From: Erysipelotrichaceae bacterium 7770_A6
Lineage (GTDB): Bacteria; Bacillota_I; Bacilli_A; Erysipelotrichales; Erysipelotrichaceae
Direction of reading: 5' to 3'
NCBI GenBank assembly: GCA_014610835.1
Contig: QQXM01000031.1
Coordinates: forward strand, 1 to 63,021
DNA length: 63,021 bases
Part shown: positions 50,246-57,806 of the stretch, piece by piece
How positions within the stretch are numbered: the first letter of the stretch is position 1
Layout: each line of letters starts with the position of its first letter
The notes under the pieces: model-generated
What the model saw: only the letters and a program-made list of their open reading frames with translations
Database searches by the model: none
What the model was told of the DNA's origin: nothing
Translations under genes and position numbers: made by a program

Positions 50246-51848
50246 TCAATGTAATATTTCTTCCACTATCATCTGTAAAGAAATTTTTCCACGGAAACGA
50301 TTTATTTGTAGTTTTCCGATAAATCCATTTACATTTTCTGGTGTCGAAATACCTTTTCGCTTATATACAATTGCATCTAATACATTATTTTTTAACTGTA
50401 TTTCATAGCGAATTGTTTTTGGTGTTTCTTTTTGAGAAATCACAGAAACATCTTTCAATGCAAATAATGGTTCTATCATCGTTCTTGGATATGGTGAGAG
50501 TTTTGATAAATCAACAACGGTATCAAAACTCACATCGTCTTCTGAAAGAAGAATGGCTTTTTTCTTTTCTTGTGTAAAGTGGATTTGCTGATGCTGCAGC
50601 TTATAGCTGATGTTCTTTCAATACAGTCAAGTCTTCTTCCTTAATAGAAATTCCAACTGCCTGCTCATGACCGCCAAACGCAACCTTCTGATCAAAGTCA
50701 GAAAGAAAATCAAAAAGATTAAATCCTGGAACACTTCTGCCGCTGCCTTTGATCAATGTATTGCTTTTGGATAGAACAAGAAATGGTTTATGGTACGTAT
50801 TCGCAAGTCTTCCCGCAACCAGTCCACAAATACCTTCATGAAATGTTGGACTGTAAATAATCTGAATCAAAGAATCATCAATCATTTTTTCAGCACTTCT
50901 ATTTTCAATTTCTGATAATTCTTTTCTTTTTTCGTTGACAGTATTCAACTGTGCAGAGTAGGAAGCAATCACATTATCATCTTTGGATAAGAGAAATGGA
51001 ACCAATGTATTCACATTTGAAATATCATTCATTCTTCCTACCGCATTCAATTTTGGAACAATATTAAATGCAATTGCAGTTTCATCAACAGAAGAATAAT
51101 ACGGCAGTAAAGAACGTAAAGACTTTACTCTGCCTTGTTTCATAATAGAAATACCTTTTTTGATCAGCTTGCGTGTTTCTTTCCACTCAGGCATCACATC
51201 TCCAATCAAAGCAACACTGCATAAGGCAACAAGCTCATCAAATTCACTGCCTGTACCAATCAGATTTCTGCTGATTTCCAATGCAACCCCAGCGCCAGAA
51301 AGATATGAAAATTCACTTTCCATATAGTCAGGATGTACAACAATATCTGCTTCAACTTCTTCTTCAATTTCATGATGATCAGTTACAATCACAAACATCC
51401 CAAGCTGTTTAGCTTTCTGTAAAGCATCATGTGCCTTGACACCATTATCTACGGTCAAGATAACAGAATATCCTTTCTGGTATGCAAGTTCTACTGTTTT
51501 CGCATTTAAGCCATAGCCTTCTTTAAAACGATCTGGAATATAGTATCCATTTTCTATTCCAAATACATCTAATGTGCGTTTCATAATTGCTGTTGAACAT
51601 ATGCCATCTGCATCATAGTCCCCACCAACAAACACTTTTTCATGATTATTTTTTGCTTCTATCAGTCGTGCACAAGCTTTTAATACGCAATCTGCTTTAG
51701 ATACAGAAAGATGATCATCTGAAGAAAGAAGATCATAGATCAATGCATCATCCATATTGGATGCGGCAATCAGCTTTCCACTCAATTTACCTACATTCCA
51801 TTTTTCTACAATTTCTTTTTCATCGACGGTAATGAGTTCATGATCCAT
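50246..51848 (-). pseudogene. recJ: Single-stranded-DNA exonuclease RecJ, frameshifted
   Basis: 5'-3' ssDNA exonuclease of recombination and mismatch repair. The first frame (51848-50601) covers the DHH part (VGGDYDADGICS, LTVDNGVKAHD, VTDHHEI), the DHHA1 part and KVAFGGHEQAVGISI, then stops after KEEDLTVLKEHQL. The C-terminal OB-like part continues one base later in another frame down to 50246 (SYKLQHQQIHFTQEKKKAIL onward). The frame change must lie between 50617 and 50601; one extra base, for example in GAAAG, explains it. Joined, the product is about 533 residues. The ATG at 51848 overlaps the murD end by 11 bp. It may be a sequencing error. Confidence 0.85.
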
Positions 51849-53148
51849 GCAATGCCAGCTCCTCAAATATACGGCCTCTTTCTTCAAAATTTTTAAAGTG
51901 ATCATAGGAACTTGCCGCTGGAGATAATACAACGCTGTGTCCTTGACGACAAATCTGTTTTGCTAAAGAAACGGCTTCTTCAAGATTTTCTACTTCAAAA
52001 AGACCTTCTCTATCGAATCCTTTTTCTTTCATTTCATGATGGATTCTTTTTCCTGTTGCATACATAAAGATGACTTTGATGTCTTTTTTCTCATTAAAGT
52101 AAGCTTCCAGCTCATTATATTCAATCCCACGATCCATTCCACCGACAAGTACAACATCTGCATCATCAATCGACTGCAGTGCCTGAATACATGCCTGACC
52201 AATTGTGGAAATAGAATCGTTGATATAGCGAATACCATCCTTTGTACCAATATTTTCTAGACGATGATGTAAAGGATGGAATTTATTACAGGCATCTAAA
52301 ACCTGCTGTTCACTGATTCCGAGTACATCCGCAATATACCATGCGACTGCTAAATTCTGATAGTTATGCTGACCAATCAATGAGCAGTGATCTACAGTGA
52401 GTATTTTTTGTGGAATATGCAGTTCTTTTCCATCTGCATAGATATCTTTTCCAATCAATACTGGTTTTACAGGTGCTTTTTCAATATAGCCATATTGATC
52501 CAGCATTGTATGCATGATTGCAATATCTCCTGCATGCATATTTTTGATGTTATTAAACTTTGCATCTCCATATTTCTTGAAAGATCCATAGTGATCTAAA
52601 TGTTCTTCAAAGAGATTTAAATATACACCGATATGAGGAGAATATGGACAATACTCTAGCTGGTGACAAGATATTTCAAAAGCTGCATATGCACCTTTTT
52701 CCATTTCTTCAATTGCATCAAAACATGCAACACCAATGTTGCCAACAAGTACAGTTGGATACTTTTCACGCAGTAATTCCGCAACAAGAGATGTTGTTGT
52801 GGATTTTCCTTTTGTTCCTGTTACGCCAATTGTTTTTGAAGCATAATGCTTTAAAAACAATTGTGCTTCTCCACTGATATTGTCTAAAGACTGTCCTTCA
52901 GGCACAACAATTCCAGGTGCTTTCATCACTAGATTAAACTTAGAAAAATCACAATCTTTGTCACTCAAACAAATAGTATGTTCCGTTGTTTCTTTCGCAG
53001 TAGCCAATCCTTTTCCACCATCCGCAATTGTAATTTCCATATCTGGAAATAAAGAACGAATCAAACGGTACGTTGCTTTCCCTTCAATTCCATATCCCCA
53101 GATACATATATTTTTTCCTTCAAATTCTTGTTTCCATGTTTCTAACAT
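51838..53148 (-). CDS. murD: UDP-N-acetylmuramoyl-L-alanine:glutamate ligase MurD
   Basis: Mur ligase that adds glutamate to UDP-MurNAc-L-Ala. In 436 residues it shows an N-terminal Rossmann domain (ICIWGYGIEGKATYRLI), the ATP loop IGVTGTKGKSTTTSLV, the FEISCHQLE and LNLFEEHLDHYG metal region and the C-terminal domain with INDSISTIGQACIQAL and VLVGGMDRG. The start overlaps the stop of the MurL-like gene by one base (TAATG). That coupling suggests this MurD may accept L-Glu, as MurD2 of Xanthomonas does, with the epimerase then inverting it. Substrate choice is inference. Confidence 0.93.
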   Translation of the reverse strand: MLETWKQEFEGKNICIWGYGIEGKATYRLIRSLFPDMEITIADGGKGLATAKETTEHTICLSDKDCDFSKFNLVMKAPGIVVPEGQSLDNISGEAQLFLKHYASKTIGVTGTKGKSTTTSLVAELLREKYPTVLVGNIGVACFDAIEEMEKGAYAAFEISCHQLEYCPYSPHIGVYLNLFEEHLDHYGSFKKYGDAKFNNIKNMHAGDIAIMHTMLDQYGYIEKAPVKPVLIGKDIYADGKELHIPQKILTVDHCSLIGQHNYQNLAVAWYIADVLGISEQQVLDACNKFHPLHHRLENIGTKDGIRYINDSISTIGQACIQALQSIDDADVVLVGGMDRGIEYNELEAYFNEKKDIKVIFMYATGKRIHHEMKEKGFDREGLFEVENLEEAVSLAKQICRQGHSVVLSPAASSYDHFKNFEERGRIFEELALHGS

Positions 53149-54512
53149 TAAAATTCACGCAGCTTTCTTTTCAAGATTTCAGCATATTCTAAAGGTAGAT
53201 TATTCTCTTCATTAAATGCAAGCATATCTACACTCTTATCTTTGTATGCTTCATAATATGTACTTGTTTTATACCAGGATAGTAATTCTGGTAATGGTTC
53301 ATGATTGTTCTCATGATGACGAATGGACATGCATAAAGCAATATTCACTTCATCTCTTGTGCCAACACATTCAAATGGCTTGTCATCTAGAATTCCTGTT
53401 AATTGTTCAAACAGTTCTTTCATAGATGGATCATTTAACATATCTGTATGGAAGATATTGACAATCGTTTTATCATCCAGATATGCACAAAGCATGCAGC
53501 AGACAAACAGACACTTTGCACAATGACCACACCACTCACCCTTTTTAGAGCCAACATTACAGCTTCTAAATACTGGAAGATACGAAGTTAATCGAGAAAA
53601 CAATCCAGCAATCTGTAATTCGGAAAGTGGTCTTAACAAAGAAAAATATTGGATGTCCAATGTCAGATATCGTTTACAGTATTCATGGAAATCTTTCTCA
53701 AACTCAAATGTTTTTGAATATTGATGATTCACTGTACTGCCTTTGATCGTTGATTCATTTGCACTTGATTCATTGGATAAAGTAATATACTTTCTTTCAT
53801 AAATCAAAGCAGTTAAATAAGAAGCAAATGCTGCCATGGCAGAGAACGGTGTATGACCATTGAGATACCCCTGCTTGTTGAGTGCAAGCATTCTTGGATC
53901 CAGTGTTCTTTGATTGATAATCAGATCTTTTCCTTCTTTGTACCCAGCCGCATGTGCAGAGTTGACTGCAGAAATAACCGGGTTAATGATAAATGCACAA
54001 TTATCTTTCTTGTATGGTGCAAGTACATCCAGCGTAACAAAACTATCTTTTCCTCCACCAACAGGAATCAGATTTCCTTTCACTTCTGCATCATATGAAT
54101 CACCACTGATTTGTTCTCCACAGGAAGATAAATGCATAAATCCATCAGAATCTAATGGAATATTGTTAATGTAGAAAAATTCACCAAGACCATGGAAATA
54201 CAGCTTCTTCCACCAGGCAATCTGATAGTCATCCAGTTTTCCACATTCCACAATAACATTTTCAGGACAGGCGATTTTCCAGTAGGAAATGAGTTCCACC
54301 ATACCTAGAGAAAATGCTGCTTCCTTGACATATTTTGTATTTAAGTGAGAAGGAATATCTTTTGGCTTTGGAATTGTCATTGTAGGCGCAAATTCAGAAA
54401 GGCCTTTTGCTTCAAAATGAAATGTGAATCGATATGCATCCTGCAAATCTTCAATATCAAAGGAATGATAATAAAACTCCGTATATTGTTTTCTTAATTC
54501 TTCATATTTCAT
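53148..54512 (-). CDS. murL: MurL-type UDP-MurNAc-L-Ala-L-Glu epimerase
   Basis: Predicted ATP-dependent epimerase that inverts the terminal L-Glu of UDP-MurNAc-L-Ala-L-Glu to D-Glu, replacing glutamate racemase. The 454-residue cytoplasmic protein has the PP-loop-like ATP motif IPVGGGKDSFVTLDVL (149-164), RTLDPRMLALNKQGYLNGHTP (202-222), LSNESSANES (245-254) with VNHQYSKTFEFE, SLLRPLSELQIAGLF, and a Cys set C318, C328, C331, C334 (WCGHCAKC). These match the MurL family as I remember it. It is coupled to murD by a one-base overlap and to the HAD gene by 4 bp. No racemase gene is in the window. An uncharacterised relative of the same fold is the alternative. Confidence 0.83.
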   Translation of the reverse strand: MKYEELRKQYTEFYYHSFDIEDLQDAYRFTFHFEAKGLSEFAPTMTIPKPKDIPSHLNTKYVKEAAFSLGMVELISYWKIACPENVIVECGKLDDYQIAWWKKLYFHGLGEFFYINNIPLDSDGFMHLSSCGEQISGDSYDAEVKGNLIPVGGGKDSFVTLDVLAPYKKDNCAFIINPVISAVNSAHAAGYKEGKDLIINQRTLDPRMLALNKQGYLNGHTPFSAMAAFASYLTALIYERKYITLSNESSANESTIKGSTVNHQYSKTFEFEKDFHEYCKRYLTLDIQYFSLLRPLSELQIAGLFSRLTSYLPVFRSCNVGSKKGEWCGHCAKCLFVCCMLCAYLDDKTIVNIFHTDMLNDPSMKELFEQLTGILDDKPFECVGTRDEVNIALCMSIRHHENNHEPLPELLSWYKTSTYYEAYKDKSVDMLAFNEENNLPLEYAEILKRKLREF

Positions 54513-55168
54513 TGCAGTTCCTCCAATAGATCAATTACCTGTGAAAGATCTTCTTTTTCAAATTCAATATTTTCTTTCATTTCATCATCTGGCTTGATTG
54601 TATCCTGAATAAAGCAGGAATGCATACCTGCACGTTTTGCCGCAAGAATACCCATCTTAGAATCTTCCAGAACTAGACAGTTTTCAGCCTCTACACCTAA
54701 AATAGATGCACCAAGCAAGAAAATATCTGGATCCGGTTTTCCATGTTCTACCATATCTCCGCCAACAATGGAGTCAAAATGTAAAGGAACACTGACAGTA
54801 TGAAGTAATGTTTCTACATATTCTTTCTTTGATGATGAACATACACAACAAGGAATATGATTCTCATTTAAATATTGATTTAAAGCAACCAAGCCTTTTT
54901 TATTCAAACCGTCTGGATAAAAAGATGCCCAGAATTCTAAGTCAAATCTCTTTTTTCTAGATGCATCTAAAATATCCTGCAAATGTGGAACAGTTTCAAA
55001 ATATGGTGTTAAAGCTCTTGTATCTTTTACACCAGTAATTGCCACAAATAGATCATCCGGAATTTCAACGCCATAGCTTCTTCCAATTTCTCTCCACATA
55101 TCCTGTGCGACTCTTTCAGTATCAAACATCAATCCATCGCAATCAAATAAAACAGCTTTCATCTTCAT
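54509..55168 (-). CDS. HAD-superfamily phosphatase (beta-phosphoglucomutase-like)
   Basis: Cytoplasmic HAD hydrolase of 219 residues with a helical cap. Motif I is LFDCDGLMFDTE, motif II CCVCSSSKKEY, and motif III/IV HGKPDPDIFLLGASIL followed by CLVLEDSKMGI. The nucleophile-Asp plus Asp-two-later pattern is intact. Substrates of such proteins range from sugar phosphates to nucleotides. It heads the murL-murD-recJ-apt operon and overlaps murL by 4 bp, so it may remove a by-product of that pathway, but nothing in the sequence shows this. GAGG lies 6 nt before the ATG. Confidence 0.85.
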   Translation of the reverse strand: MKMKAVLFDCDGLMFDTERVAQDMWREIGRSYGVEIPDDLFVAITGVKDTRALTPYFETVPHLQDILDASRKKRFDLEFWASFYPDGLNKKGLVALNQYLNENHIPCCVCSSSKKEYVETLLHTVSVPLHFDSIVGGDMVEHGKPDPDIFLLGASILGVEAENCLVLEDSKMGILAAKRAGMHSCFIQDTIKPDDEMKENIEFEKEDLSQVIDLLEELQ

Positions 55169-55219: not shown

Positions 55220-57520
55220 TTAAGCGTTGATTCCTTTGAATGTATATTCATCAAGCTCTTCTTTATTCTGCTTCTTTTTCTTCTTTGGCTTATCCTTATG
55301 CTTTGTATGAGTTCTGAGATAAATCCATACACTTGGTGCAATAAACAAGGATGAGAATGTACCAGCAACTAAACCAATAAGCATAGCGAAGTTAAATGTA
55401 AAGATTGCATTACTTCCCATAGCAAGCAAGAAGATAACTGGGAACAGAGTTGTAATAGAGCCATAGAATGACATCTTGATTGTCTTATCTAATGAACTGT
55501 TTACAACTTCAGCATACTGTTCCTTGCTTAAGTTGCCCTTCTTGGATTCCATTGTTTCTCTAATTCTATCGAATACGATAATAGAGTTATTGATAGAATA
55601 ACCAATGATTGTTAACAATACAGAAATTAATTCAGTATTAATTTCAAATCTAGCAATCATAAACAGTGCCAATACCATGAATACGTCATGGAACAATGCA
55701 ACAAGACATCCAACTGCATAATCCCATTGATAACGGAATGTAATATATGCAAGCATTGCAACCCAGGCAACAACTGTTAAGATAATTGCATTTCTAACAA
55801 GATCTTTACCAACAACTGGAGTTACAACGTTATCGTTTGGTTCCTGTCCATAGACATCCTTCAATGCAGCCTTTAGCTTTGTCAATTCTTCTGTAGAGAA
55901 TGTCTGTGTTGTTGTAGCGTATACAGAATTTTCTCCAGCTGCCTGATAAGCAAAACCCTTATAGCCAAGTGTTTCCATTTCGTTCTTAACTTCATCTGTT
56001 GTCAATGCGTTATCAGATGTAATTGTCAGCTTTGTACCAGAAGCAAAGTCAATACCTAGTTTTACAAAACCATCACCCTTTGTCATATTGAAAATACCAA
56101 GACATAGTGCAAGAGCAAAGACAGCTAAAGCTGCACGAATGACAAGCTTAGATTTCTGAACATAGTCAAACTGATGTGTTCCTGTATAGAATTGAGACTG
56201 TCCTTTAGATACATCTGGAATCTGTTCTTTCTTCACAGCAAACCATTCAGGATGATTATCCGCAATATGAGAATTTACAATGAGCTTTAACATGATTCTA
56301 CTTAAAGCGACGTTCAACAGCATTGTCATAATAACTGTAATGATCAACATTGTTGCAAATCCCTTAACAGATCCATTACCCCAGATATACATAATCAAAG
56401 CTGTAAGGAATGTTGTAAACTGTGAGTCAAAGATTGCGGAGAATGATACTGTCTGTCCCTCTCTAACTGCGTTTGGAACACTTCTACCCTTATATAGTTC
56501 TTGTCTGATTCTTTCAAAATCAATGATATTAACGTCTACTGTCATACCAACACCAAGAACAAGAGCACCGATACCTGATAATGTAAATACTGCACCCATA
56601 AGTGAATATAAACCAAATACGCCCCAGATATATGCAACAAGCATAATTGCAGATACAATACCAGGAAGTCTATACTTAACAATCATGAACAGCATGACAA
56701 GTGCTACACCGATACCACCAGCCAAAGCTGTTTTTGCTAAAGCATCCTGACCAAACTGTGCAGAAACTACATTGGATGATAATTCGGTCATCTTGACTGG
56801 TAAAGAACCAGAATTGATCAGGTTAGCCAGTTCACGTGCTTCTTCTTCTGTGAAGTTGCCAGAAATCTGACAGTCACCAGAAATTTCAGAATTTACACTT
56901 GCTGCAGAAATATATTTAGGTTCTTCTCCCTTTGCAGCTTTTGCTGCTTCTGTTTTATAGGAGTAACCTTCTTCATAATCAAGCCAGATGACCATAATGT
57001 TGCTTCCTTTTGTTTTCTTGGAAACTTCTTTTGTCATTTCAGCAAATTTTTTCTGATCTTTGATTTTTAATGAAACGATTGGCTGCCCATTTTCGTTATA
57101 TGCTAAAGATGCACCGCCTTCCGTTAAGATAGATGAATCAGCTAGTTCATTATCATCAACATCTCTGAATGTAAGATTAGCAGTTGTACCAATCATTTCA
57201 CGTGCTGCATCTTGATCTGTAACACCAGCCAGCTGAACTCTGACTCTGTCATTTCCTTCAACAGAAATACTTGGTTCAGATACACCTAATACATTGATAC
57301 GTTTTGAAATTGAATTCACAACCGCATCCATGTCAATGGAACTGTCTCCATTCAAAGGTTTCACTTGATACAAGATTTCGAATCCACCTTGCAGATCAAG
57401 TCCAAGGTTCAAATTTGATTTCACTGTACTATAAGTTGTTGTTACTAAAGCAAACAGAATAGCAACAATACCTATGAATACCGCAATTGAACTCTTTTTT
57501 GTTTTTGATTGCTTTGCCAT
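55220..57520 (-). CDS. secDF: Protein translocase subunit SecDF (fused)
   Basis: Membrane protein using proton motive force to pull proteins out after SecA-driven export; SecD and SecF are fused, as in most Bacillota. The 766 residues include a first membrane helix, LGLDLQGGFEILYQV (SecD), a large outside domain, five helices with GVGMTVDVNIIDFERI, then the SecF half starting LGIDFASGTKLTI and a second set of helices with TIIGYSINNSIIVFDRIRE. A basic tail ends the protein. The ATG at 57520 has GGAGG 8 nt upstream. It assists export of the foldases and SH3 protein. Confidence 0.97.
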   Translation of the reverse strand: MAKQSKTKKSSIAVFIGIVAILFALVTTTYSTVKSNLNLGLDLQGGFEILYQVKPLNGDSSIDMDAVVNSISKRINVLGVSEPSISVEGNDRVRVQLAGVTDQDAAREMIGTTANLTFRDVDDNELADSSILTEGGASLAYNENGQPIVSLKIKDQKKFAEMTKEVSKKTKGSNIMVIWLDYEEGYSYKTEAAKAAKGEEPKYISAASVNSEISGDCQISGNFTEEEARELANLINSGSLPVKMTELSSNVVSAQFGQDALAKTALAGGIGVALVMLFMIVKYRLPGIVSAIMLVAYIWGVFGLYSLMGAVFTLSGIGALVLGVGMTVDVNIIDFERIRQELYKGRSVPNAVREGQTVSFSAIFDSQFTTFLTALIMYIWGNGSVKGFATMLIITVIMTMLLNVALSRIMLKLIVNSHIADNHPEWFAVKKEQIPDVSKGQSQFYTGTHQFDYVQKSKLVIRAALAVFALALCLGIFNMTKGDGFVKLGIDFASGTKLTITSDNALTTDEVKNEMETLGYKGFAYQAAGENSVYATTTQTFSTEELTKLKAALKDVYGQEPNDNVVTPVVGKDLVRNAIILTVVAWVAMLAYITFRYQWDYAVGCLVALFHDVFMVLALFMIARFEINTELISVLLTIIGYSINNSIIVFDRIRETMESKKGNLSKEQYAEVVNSSLDKTIKMSFYGSITTLFPVIFLLAMGSNAIFTFNFAMLIGLVAGTFSSLFIAPSVWIYLRTHTKHKDKPKKKKKQNKEELDEYTFKGINA

Positions 57521-57521
57521 T

Positions 57522-57806
57522 TTATTTTCCTCCAAAAAGATCTGCAAATTCACTTAAGTCTTGTGATGAACCTTTCACAATTGCATTACGCGCTAAAAAA
57601 CGTACAATATCTTGTGCTTTTACAGATAGAACTTGATTGATTGCCGTATGAAGCGACCTAGGACAATCATTTTTCCAAAGACGATCTCTCAGATAGTCTT
57701 CCAGGTTTTCATATTGAAGCGAGGGAATTTCTTTGCTTTTCAGTTGCTGCATTTTCAATACCATCACAAGCTGAACACAGGTATTATTTACATCAAACAC
57801 TTCCAA
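57522..57806 (-). CDS. ComN-like post-transcriptional regulator
   Basis: Small protein of about 94 residues with LEDYLRDRLWKNDCPRSLHTAINQVLSVKAQDIVRFLARNAIVKG, matching the post-transcriptional regulator family of Bacillus ComN, which acts on late-competence mRNA. ComN also lies directly before secDF in Bacillus, supporting the call. The Shine-Dalgarno sequence GGAGGAGG (57821-57814) lies inside the longest reading frame, 8 nt before a TTG at 57806, so TTG is the likely start; an ATG at 57824 is the alternative. The stop is one base before the secDF start. Confidence 0.72.
   Translation of the reverse strand: MEVFDVNNTCVQLVMVLKMQQLKSKEIPSLQYENLEDYLRDRLWKNDCPRSLHTAINQVLSVKAQDIVRFLARNAIVKGSSQDLSEFADLFGGK

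Follow-up and report, generated by a model that had tools for sequence, protein, structure and literature searches.

The window analyzed here, a stretch of 63,021 nucleotides from Erysipelotrichaceae bacterium 7770_A6 (contig QQXM01000031.1; the host below), shows the gene order secDF - HAD - murL - murD - recJ - apt - relA - hisS - aspS, in which a gene for a homologue of MurL, the epimerase of the L-glutamate (L-Glu) route to peptidoglycan, lies beside a gene for a predicted L-Glu-adding MurD ligase (MurD2). The two genes share a single base, position 53148 (TTTTAATGTTA), the HAD stop and the murL start overlap by four bases, and a further overlap of a few bases joins murD to recJ, a pattern like that of a translationally coupled operon. 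Both the homology of these proteins and the gene content of the host point to this pair as the source of the D-glutamate (D-Glu) of its peptidoglycan.

The 454-residue product of the upstream gene has a single match in NCBIfam, the MurL model NF041275 (E 1.3e-71), and no significant match in a Pfam scan. It is homologous along most of its length to the annotated murL product of Xanthomonas sacchari (34% identity over 328 residues), whose gene, too, overlaps a murD downstream. In addition to a near-invariant PP-loop motif, the protein carries a fourth cysteine, C318, ahead of its CxxCxxC, giving C(x)9CxxCxxC; these four cysteines and residues G153, G154, D156 and S157 do not vary across 82 MurL sequences, that of X. 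sacchari among them, in which the spacing is C(x)9-15CxxCxxC. Judged by its sequence, the protein is a MurL homologue. In two close relatives (L015/L016; genomes G035 and G005) the SNESSANE/NHQYSK region of MurL is altered, and both genomes also carry a D-amino-acid-transaminase-like gene; the function of these two proteins is perhaps relaxed or altered.

The adjoining ligase scores 282 bits against the MurD model TIGR01087 (cut-off 212). At the positions of D182, K319 and K348 of Escherichia coli MurD it has Glu, Ile and Arg, the same three residues as X. sacchari MurD2. The MurD2 of X. oryzae has Glu and Arg at the positions of D182 and K348, the double change E197D/R358K turns it into a D-Glu ligase, and E. 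coli MurD with K319T accepts L-Glu (PMC8788868). In agreement with this, Ile and Arg occupy the second and third positions in all 85 murL-linked MurDs, and Glu the first in 78, whereas D, K and K are found in all eight canonical MurDs of relatives, including that of genome G008. Thus, the MurD of the window, which has both the Glu and the Arg that mark MurD2, is predicted to be an L-Glu-adding enzyme.

The rest of the host genome (2.28 Mb in 233 contigs, 98.4% complete) fits this prediction. A search for murI, the glutamate racemase gene, returned no match even at E<=10, the Asp/Glu-racemase fold (PF01177) reached at best 11.5 bits, which is not above chance, and the only trace of a D-amino-acid transaminase was a partial match of 30.8 bits inside a 352-residue open reading frame consistent with a branched-chain aminotransferase. 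In this 98.4% complete assembly, the host has neither a recognizable glutamate racemase nor a convincing D-amino-acid transaminase. There is one murD and no second copy, and murE is clear (469 bits). Since murE is present and no murI, racemase or convincing transaminase accompanies it, the host should make D-Glu-containing peptidoglycan without a recognizable source of free D-Glu.

Taken together, homology, gene linkage and residue identities argue that murL-murD2 is the route by which the host obtains the D-Glu of its peptidoglycan (probability about 0.9). MurD2 would attach ordinary L-Glu, and MurL would then flip the attached residue in place, spending one ATP on adenylation of its alpha-carboxylate, which would render the alpha proton acidic, and releasing AMP; neither free D-Glu nor MurI would be required. 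By analogy with the Xanthomonas enzyme, the window MurL may use the same adenylation and inversion chemistry. The original prediction, made from the stretch alone, had anticipated an L-Glu route with a MurL-type epimerase, and much of it is borne out: both open reading frames are real, on the minus strand, with the one-base overlap; GGGKDS, SNESSANES and CxxCxxC all occur in the 454-residue protein; the MurL profile matches it, and no better PP-loop family was found for it; the MurD2 residues are in place; and murI, an Asp/Glu racemase and a second murD were not found in the host genome.

Table 1. Features of the murL-murD2 locus and its flanks (window coordinates)
Feature	Position	Strand	Remarks
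murL-like open reading frame	53148..54512	minus	454 aa; NF041275 E 1.3e-71; 34% identity/328 aa vs X. sacchari MurL; AlphaFold pLDDT 90.4
murD2, predicted L-Glu-adding UDP-MurNAc-L-Ala ligase	51838..53148	minus	436 aa; TIGR01087 282 bits; D182E, K319I, K348R vs E. coli MurD
PP-loop GGGKDS, MurL residues 152-157	54042..54059	minus	near-invariant in 82 MurL sequences
C318(x)9C328xxC331xxC334, QueC-type putative metal-binding motif of MurL	53511..53561	minus	4/4 Cys invariant in 82 sequences
MurD2 motif EEHLD, second E in place of E. coli D182	52594..52608	minus	
MurD2 motif NDSIST, I in place of E. coli K319	52204..52221	minus	Ile in 85/85 murL-linked MurDs; Lys in canonical sisters
MurD2 motif GGMDRG, R in place of E. 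coli K348	52126..52143	minus	Arg in 85/85 murL-linked MurDs; Lys in canonical sisters
HAD-family phosphatase-like gene, co-oriented	54509..55168	minus	resident of the site; also in the secDF-recJ interval of murI-bearing relatives without murL-murD2
recJ, downstream flank	50601..51848	minus	start probably 51848, overlapping the murD2 stop
secDF, upstream flank	55220..57553	minus	

The predicted structure of MurL offers a basis for this chemistry. The AlphaFold model (pLDDT 90.4, pTM 0.90) matches QatC best (Z 17.9; 334 residues), followed by QueC (Z 13.5; 201 residues), both scores standing well above the Z of about 7-8 obtained with other PP-loop enzymes, and the protein is thus predicted to adopt a QueC-like PP-loop fold. 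PP-loop enzymes release pyrophosphate and adenylate their substrates. Such a fold would explain why MurL requires ATP and forms AMP, and together with the motifs it suggests that MurL adenylates the alpha-carboxylate. This fits the AMP formation reported for Xanthomonas MurL by its discoverers, who proposed an alpha-carboxyl adenylate followed by inversion (PMC8788868). Reviews of 2018 and 2021 describe the mechanism as unclear and the protein as free of known domains. QueC combines an SGGxDS loop with a zinc-binding C(x)8CxxCxxC (PMC13329287), and the cysteines of the window MurL may likewise bind a metal, as the model and motifs would have it. QueC, QatC and Cap9 (PP-loop family PF06508) thus resemble MurL in predicted fold, GGxDS loop and C(x)nCxxCxxC motif, but differ in gene neighbors and show no significant sequence match: the window protein does not match PF06508 at E<=1, the best score being that of a relative (L124; 10.5 bits, E 0.44), and a sequence search of the PDB found no relative of the window protein, a profile yielding only weak matches to TtuA (E 0.03). 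The QueC-family literature examined, including PMC13329287, makes no mention of MurL, for which the QueC-like fold provides a direct structural hypothesis.

Among relatives, the pair takes the place of the racemase route. In a set of 36 genomes of the same genus, murL is present in 16 (host included) and murI in 14 (13 over the cut-off, plus a 143-bit match on a fragment), and none has both; the 6 with neither are mostly incomplete. Similarly, a phylum sample of 392 well-assembled genomes holds 13 with murL (host included), 72 with murI and none with both. Two genomes of the same genus that are 97-99% complete, G181 and G313, show neither gene at the thresholds used. Fisher p values for this exclusion, which ignore kinship, are 1.3e-5 for the same-genus genomes and 1.9e-6 when the family is considered. 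The canonical route of the same-genus sisters differs in its separate locus, in a MurD with D182/K319/K348 and in its need for glutamate racemase; in the majority of murI genomes, an operon of canonical murD and murI lies at unrelated sites, and at the place corresponding to the window secDF is followed by HAD, or by nothing, and then by recJ, with no murL-murD in between. HAD is retained there when murI is the route, and the module that varies is therefore murL-murD2 alone. Of the inserted HAD-murL-murD cassette of the original prediction, HAD is thus rejected as a member, whereas murL-murD may or may not have been inserted here. Base composition carries no foreign signature and lends no support to a recent foreign insertion of the pair, its G+C content (0.35-0.36) being close to that of the window (0.362).

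On a host tree built quickly from the proteins of eight flanking genes, which does not tell gain from loss, the murL and murI routes underwent at least three changes of state, and the type of MurD was exchanged at every switch. A single gain of murL followed by vertical descent was rejected, as the tree does not accommodate a single murL-bearing clade (p-AU 6e-42), and no clear donor was apparent in the gene trees. The murI of the G006/G020 clade (L088, L089) is only 47-48% identical to the reference murI and does not lie beside murD, which suggests that this clade acquired the racemase route separately.

The pair also extends well beyond the genus. A scan of GTDB genomes yielded at least 550 confirmed MurL relatives among 593 pattern matches, of which the best 80 were examined. 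These belong mostly to Erysipelotrichaceae, Lachnospiraceae, Oscillospiraceae/Ruminococcaceae and unclassified Clostridia; a few are labelled Bacteroidales, although labels of metagenome-assembled genomes may be wrong. Cultured holders include Lactimicrobium massiliense Marseille-P4301, Clostridiales 1_7_47_FAA and Mordavella massiliensis An582. In 70 of these 80 loci, spread over several families, murD2 adjoins murL, and among 50 murL genomes examined from this set murI exceeded the cut-off in one. The MurD2-MurL route is known from Xanthomonas and a small number of actinobacteria. As holders of MurL, the reviews of 2018 and 2021 name gamma- and alphaproteobacteria and actinobacteria but not Bacillota; they also mention orthologues of low similarity from cyanobacteria, a fungus and an amoeba. 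In the open literature, no paper was found that places the route in Bacillota or links MurL with Erysipelotrichaceae, Firmicutes or QueC. It is likely that the MurL route serves gut Bacillota (Erysipelotrichaceae, Lachnospiraceae, Oscillospiraceae and others) as a common alternative, repeatedly exchanged for murI with MurD specificity in step, and that MurL belongs to the metal-ribbon PP-loop enzymes with a QueC/QatC fold.

The closest known counterpart is the MurD2-MurL pair of X. oryzae (XOO_1320/XOO_1319), which has orthologues in other gamma- and alphaproteobacteria and in Micromonospora/Salinispora. The window and Xanthomonas share an overlapping murL-murD2 pair, E182/R348, GGGKDS, the four cysteines and the absence of murI, and I319 of the window MurD recurs in X. 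sacchari MurD2; identity to the X. sacchari proteins is about 34% for MurL and 29% for MurD2. However, the window pair resides in the secDF-recJ block of a Bacillota host, whereas the Xanthomonas pair lies beside aspartokinase/diaminopimelate decarboxylase, and at the positions of A414/L416 the window MurD has S/Y in place of the P/F of Xanthomonas MurD2.

Several observations weigh against assigning the L-Glu route to the host. The NF041275 score of 241 bits lies below the curated cut-off of 700 bits; this model (MurL_Xanthomonadales) is an equivalog tuned to Xanthomonadales, which places the window protein outside that narrow group. D182 is kept in 7 of the 85 murL-linked MurDs, murD2 is not adjacent at 10 of the 80 loci, and a full or partial murI match occurs in 3 of the 50 murL genomes, two of them at about 100 bits. 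Furthermore, the metagenome-assembled genome G008 carries murL-murD2 and a lone canonical murD on separate contigs (L056, L082), and an assembly of 233 contigs and 98.4% completeness may have missed a gene. The last point leaves a slim chance that the host has both routes and that murI fell into an assembly gap, but murI is absent from the 15 other murL genomes of the genus and from the 12 others of the phylum sample. The canonical murD of G008 is akin to that of the sister clade G006/G019/G020, and no murI was found in this genome; its double MurD represents a possible transition state or binning error.

It is also conceivable, if quite improbable, that the window MurD is a ligase for D-Glu, supplied by uptake or by a D-amino-acid transaminase, with the MurL homologue serving another purpose. 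Transaminases scoring about 200-207 bits occur in the murL-bearing relatives G005, G018, G031 and G035, but they are equally frequent in murI genomes and thus do not track murL; the host itself has only the 31-bit partial match in the reading frame resembling a branched-chain aminotransferase, and its MurD bears L-Glu-specific residues. The fold and QueC-type motifs could instead make MurL a QueC/QatC-like enzyme of another pathway, either deazaguanine chemistry or phage defense, that neighbors murD by chance. This is very unlikely given its homology to X. sacchari MurL, the recurrence of murD2 beside murL in several families among the best 80 of at least 550 relatives and the strict exclusion between murL and murI; a role as a defense protein was rejected, as PADLOC found no defense-family match for MurL.

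Gram-positive bacteria are generally assumed to need glutamate racemase, an enzyme under pursuit as a drug target, yet a large number of gut Bacillota can probably dispense with it. A genus with at least three route switches between close species also provides a natural system for studying the exchange of an essential step.

The murL loci without an adjacent murD2 (L148, L158, L159, L160, L161, L164, L165, L169, L172 and L176) have among their neighbors genes for a class V aminotransferase, DegV, TatD and VanZ. Two Pseudonocardia plasmids (L204, L205) encode a MurL homologue of 29% identity that is annotated as hypothetical. Its gene adjoins one with WD40 repeats, and murD is absent there, which possibly reflects another function of the family. 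Additionally, an unverified fecal scaffold labelled 'Bacteriophage sp.' (L206, MT836755.1) encodes a MurL of 46% identity and is probably mislabelled bacterial DNA.
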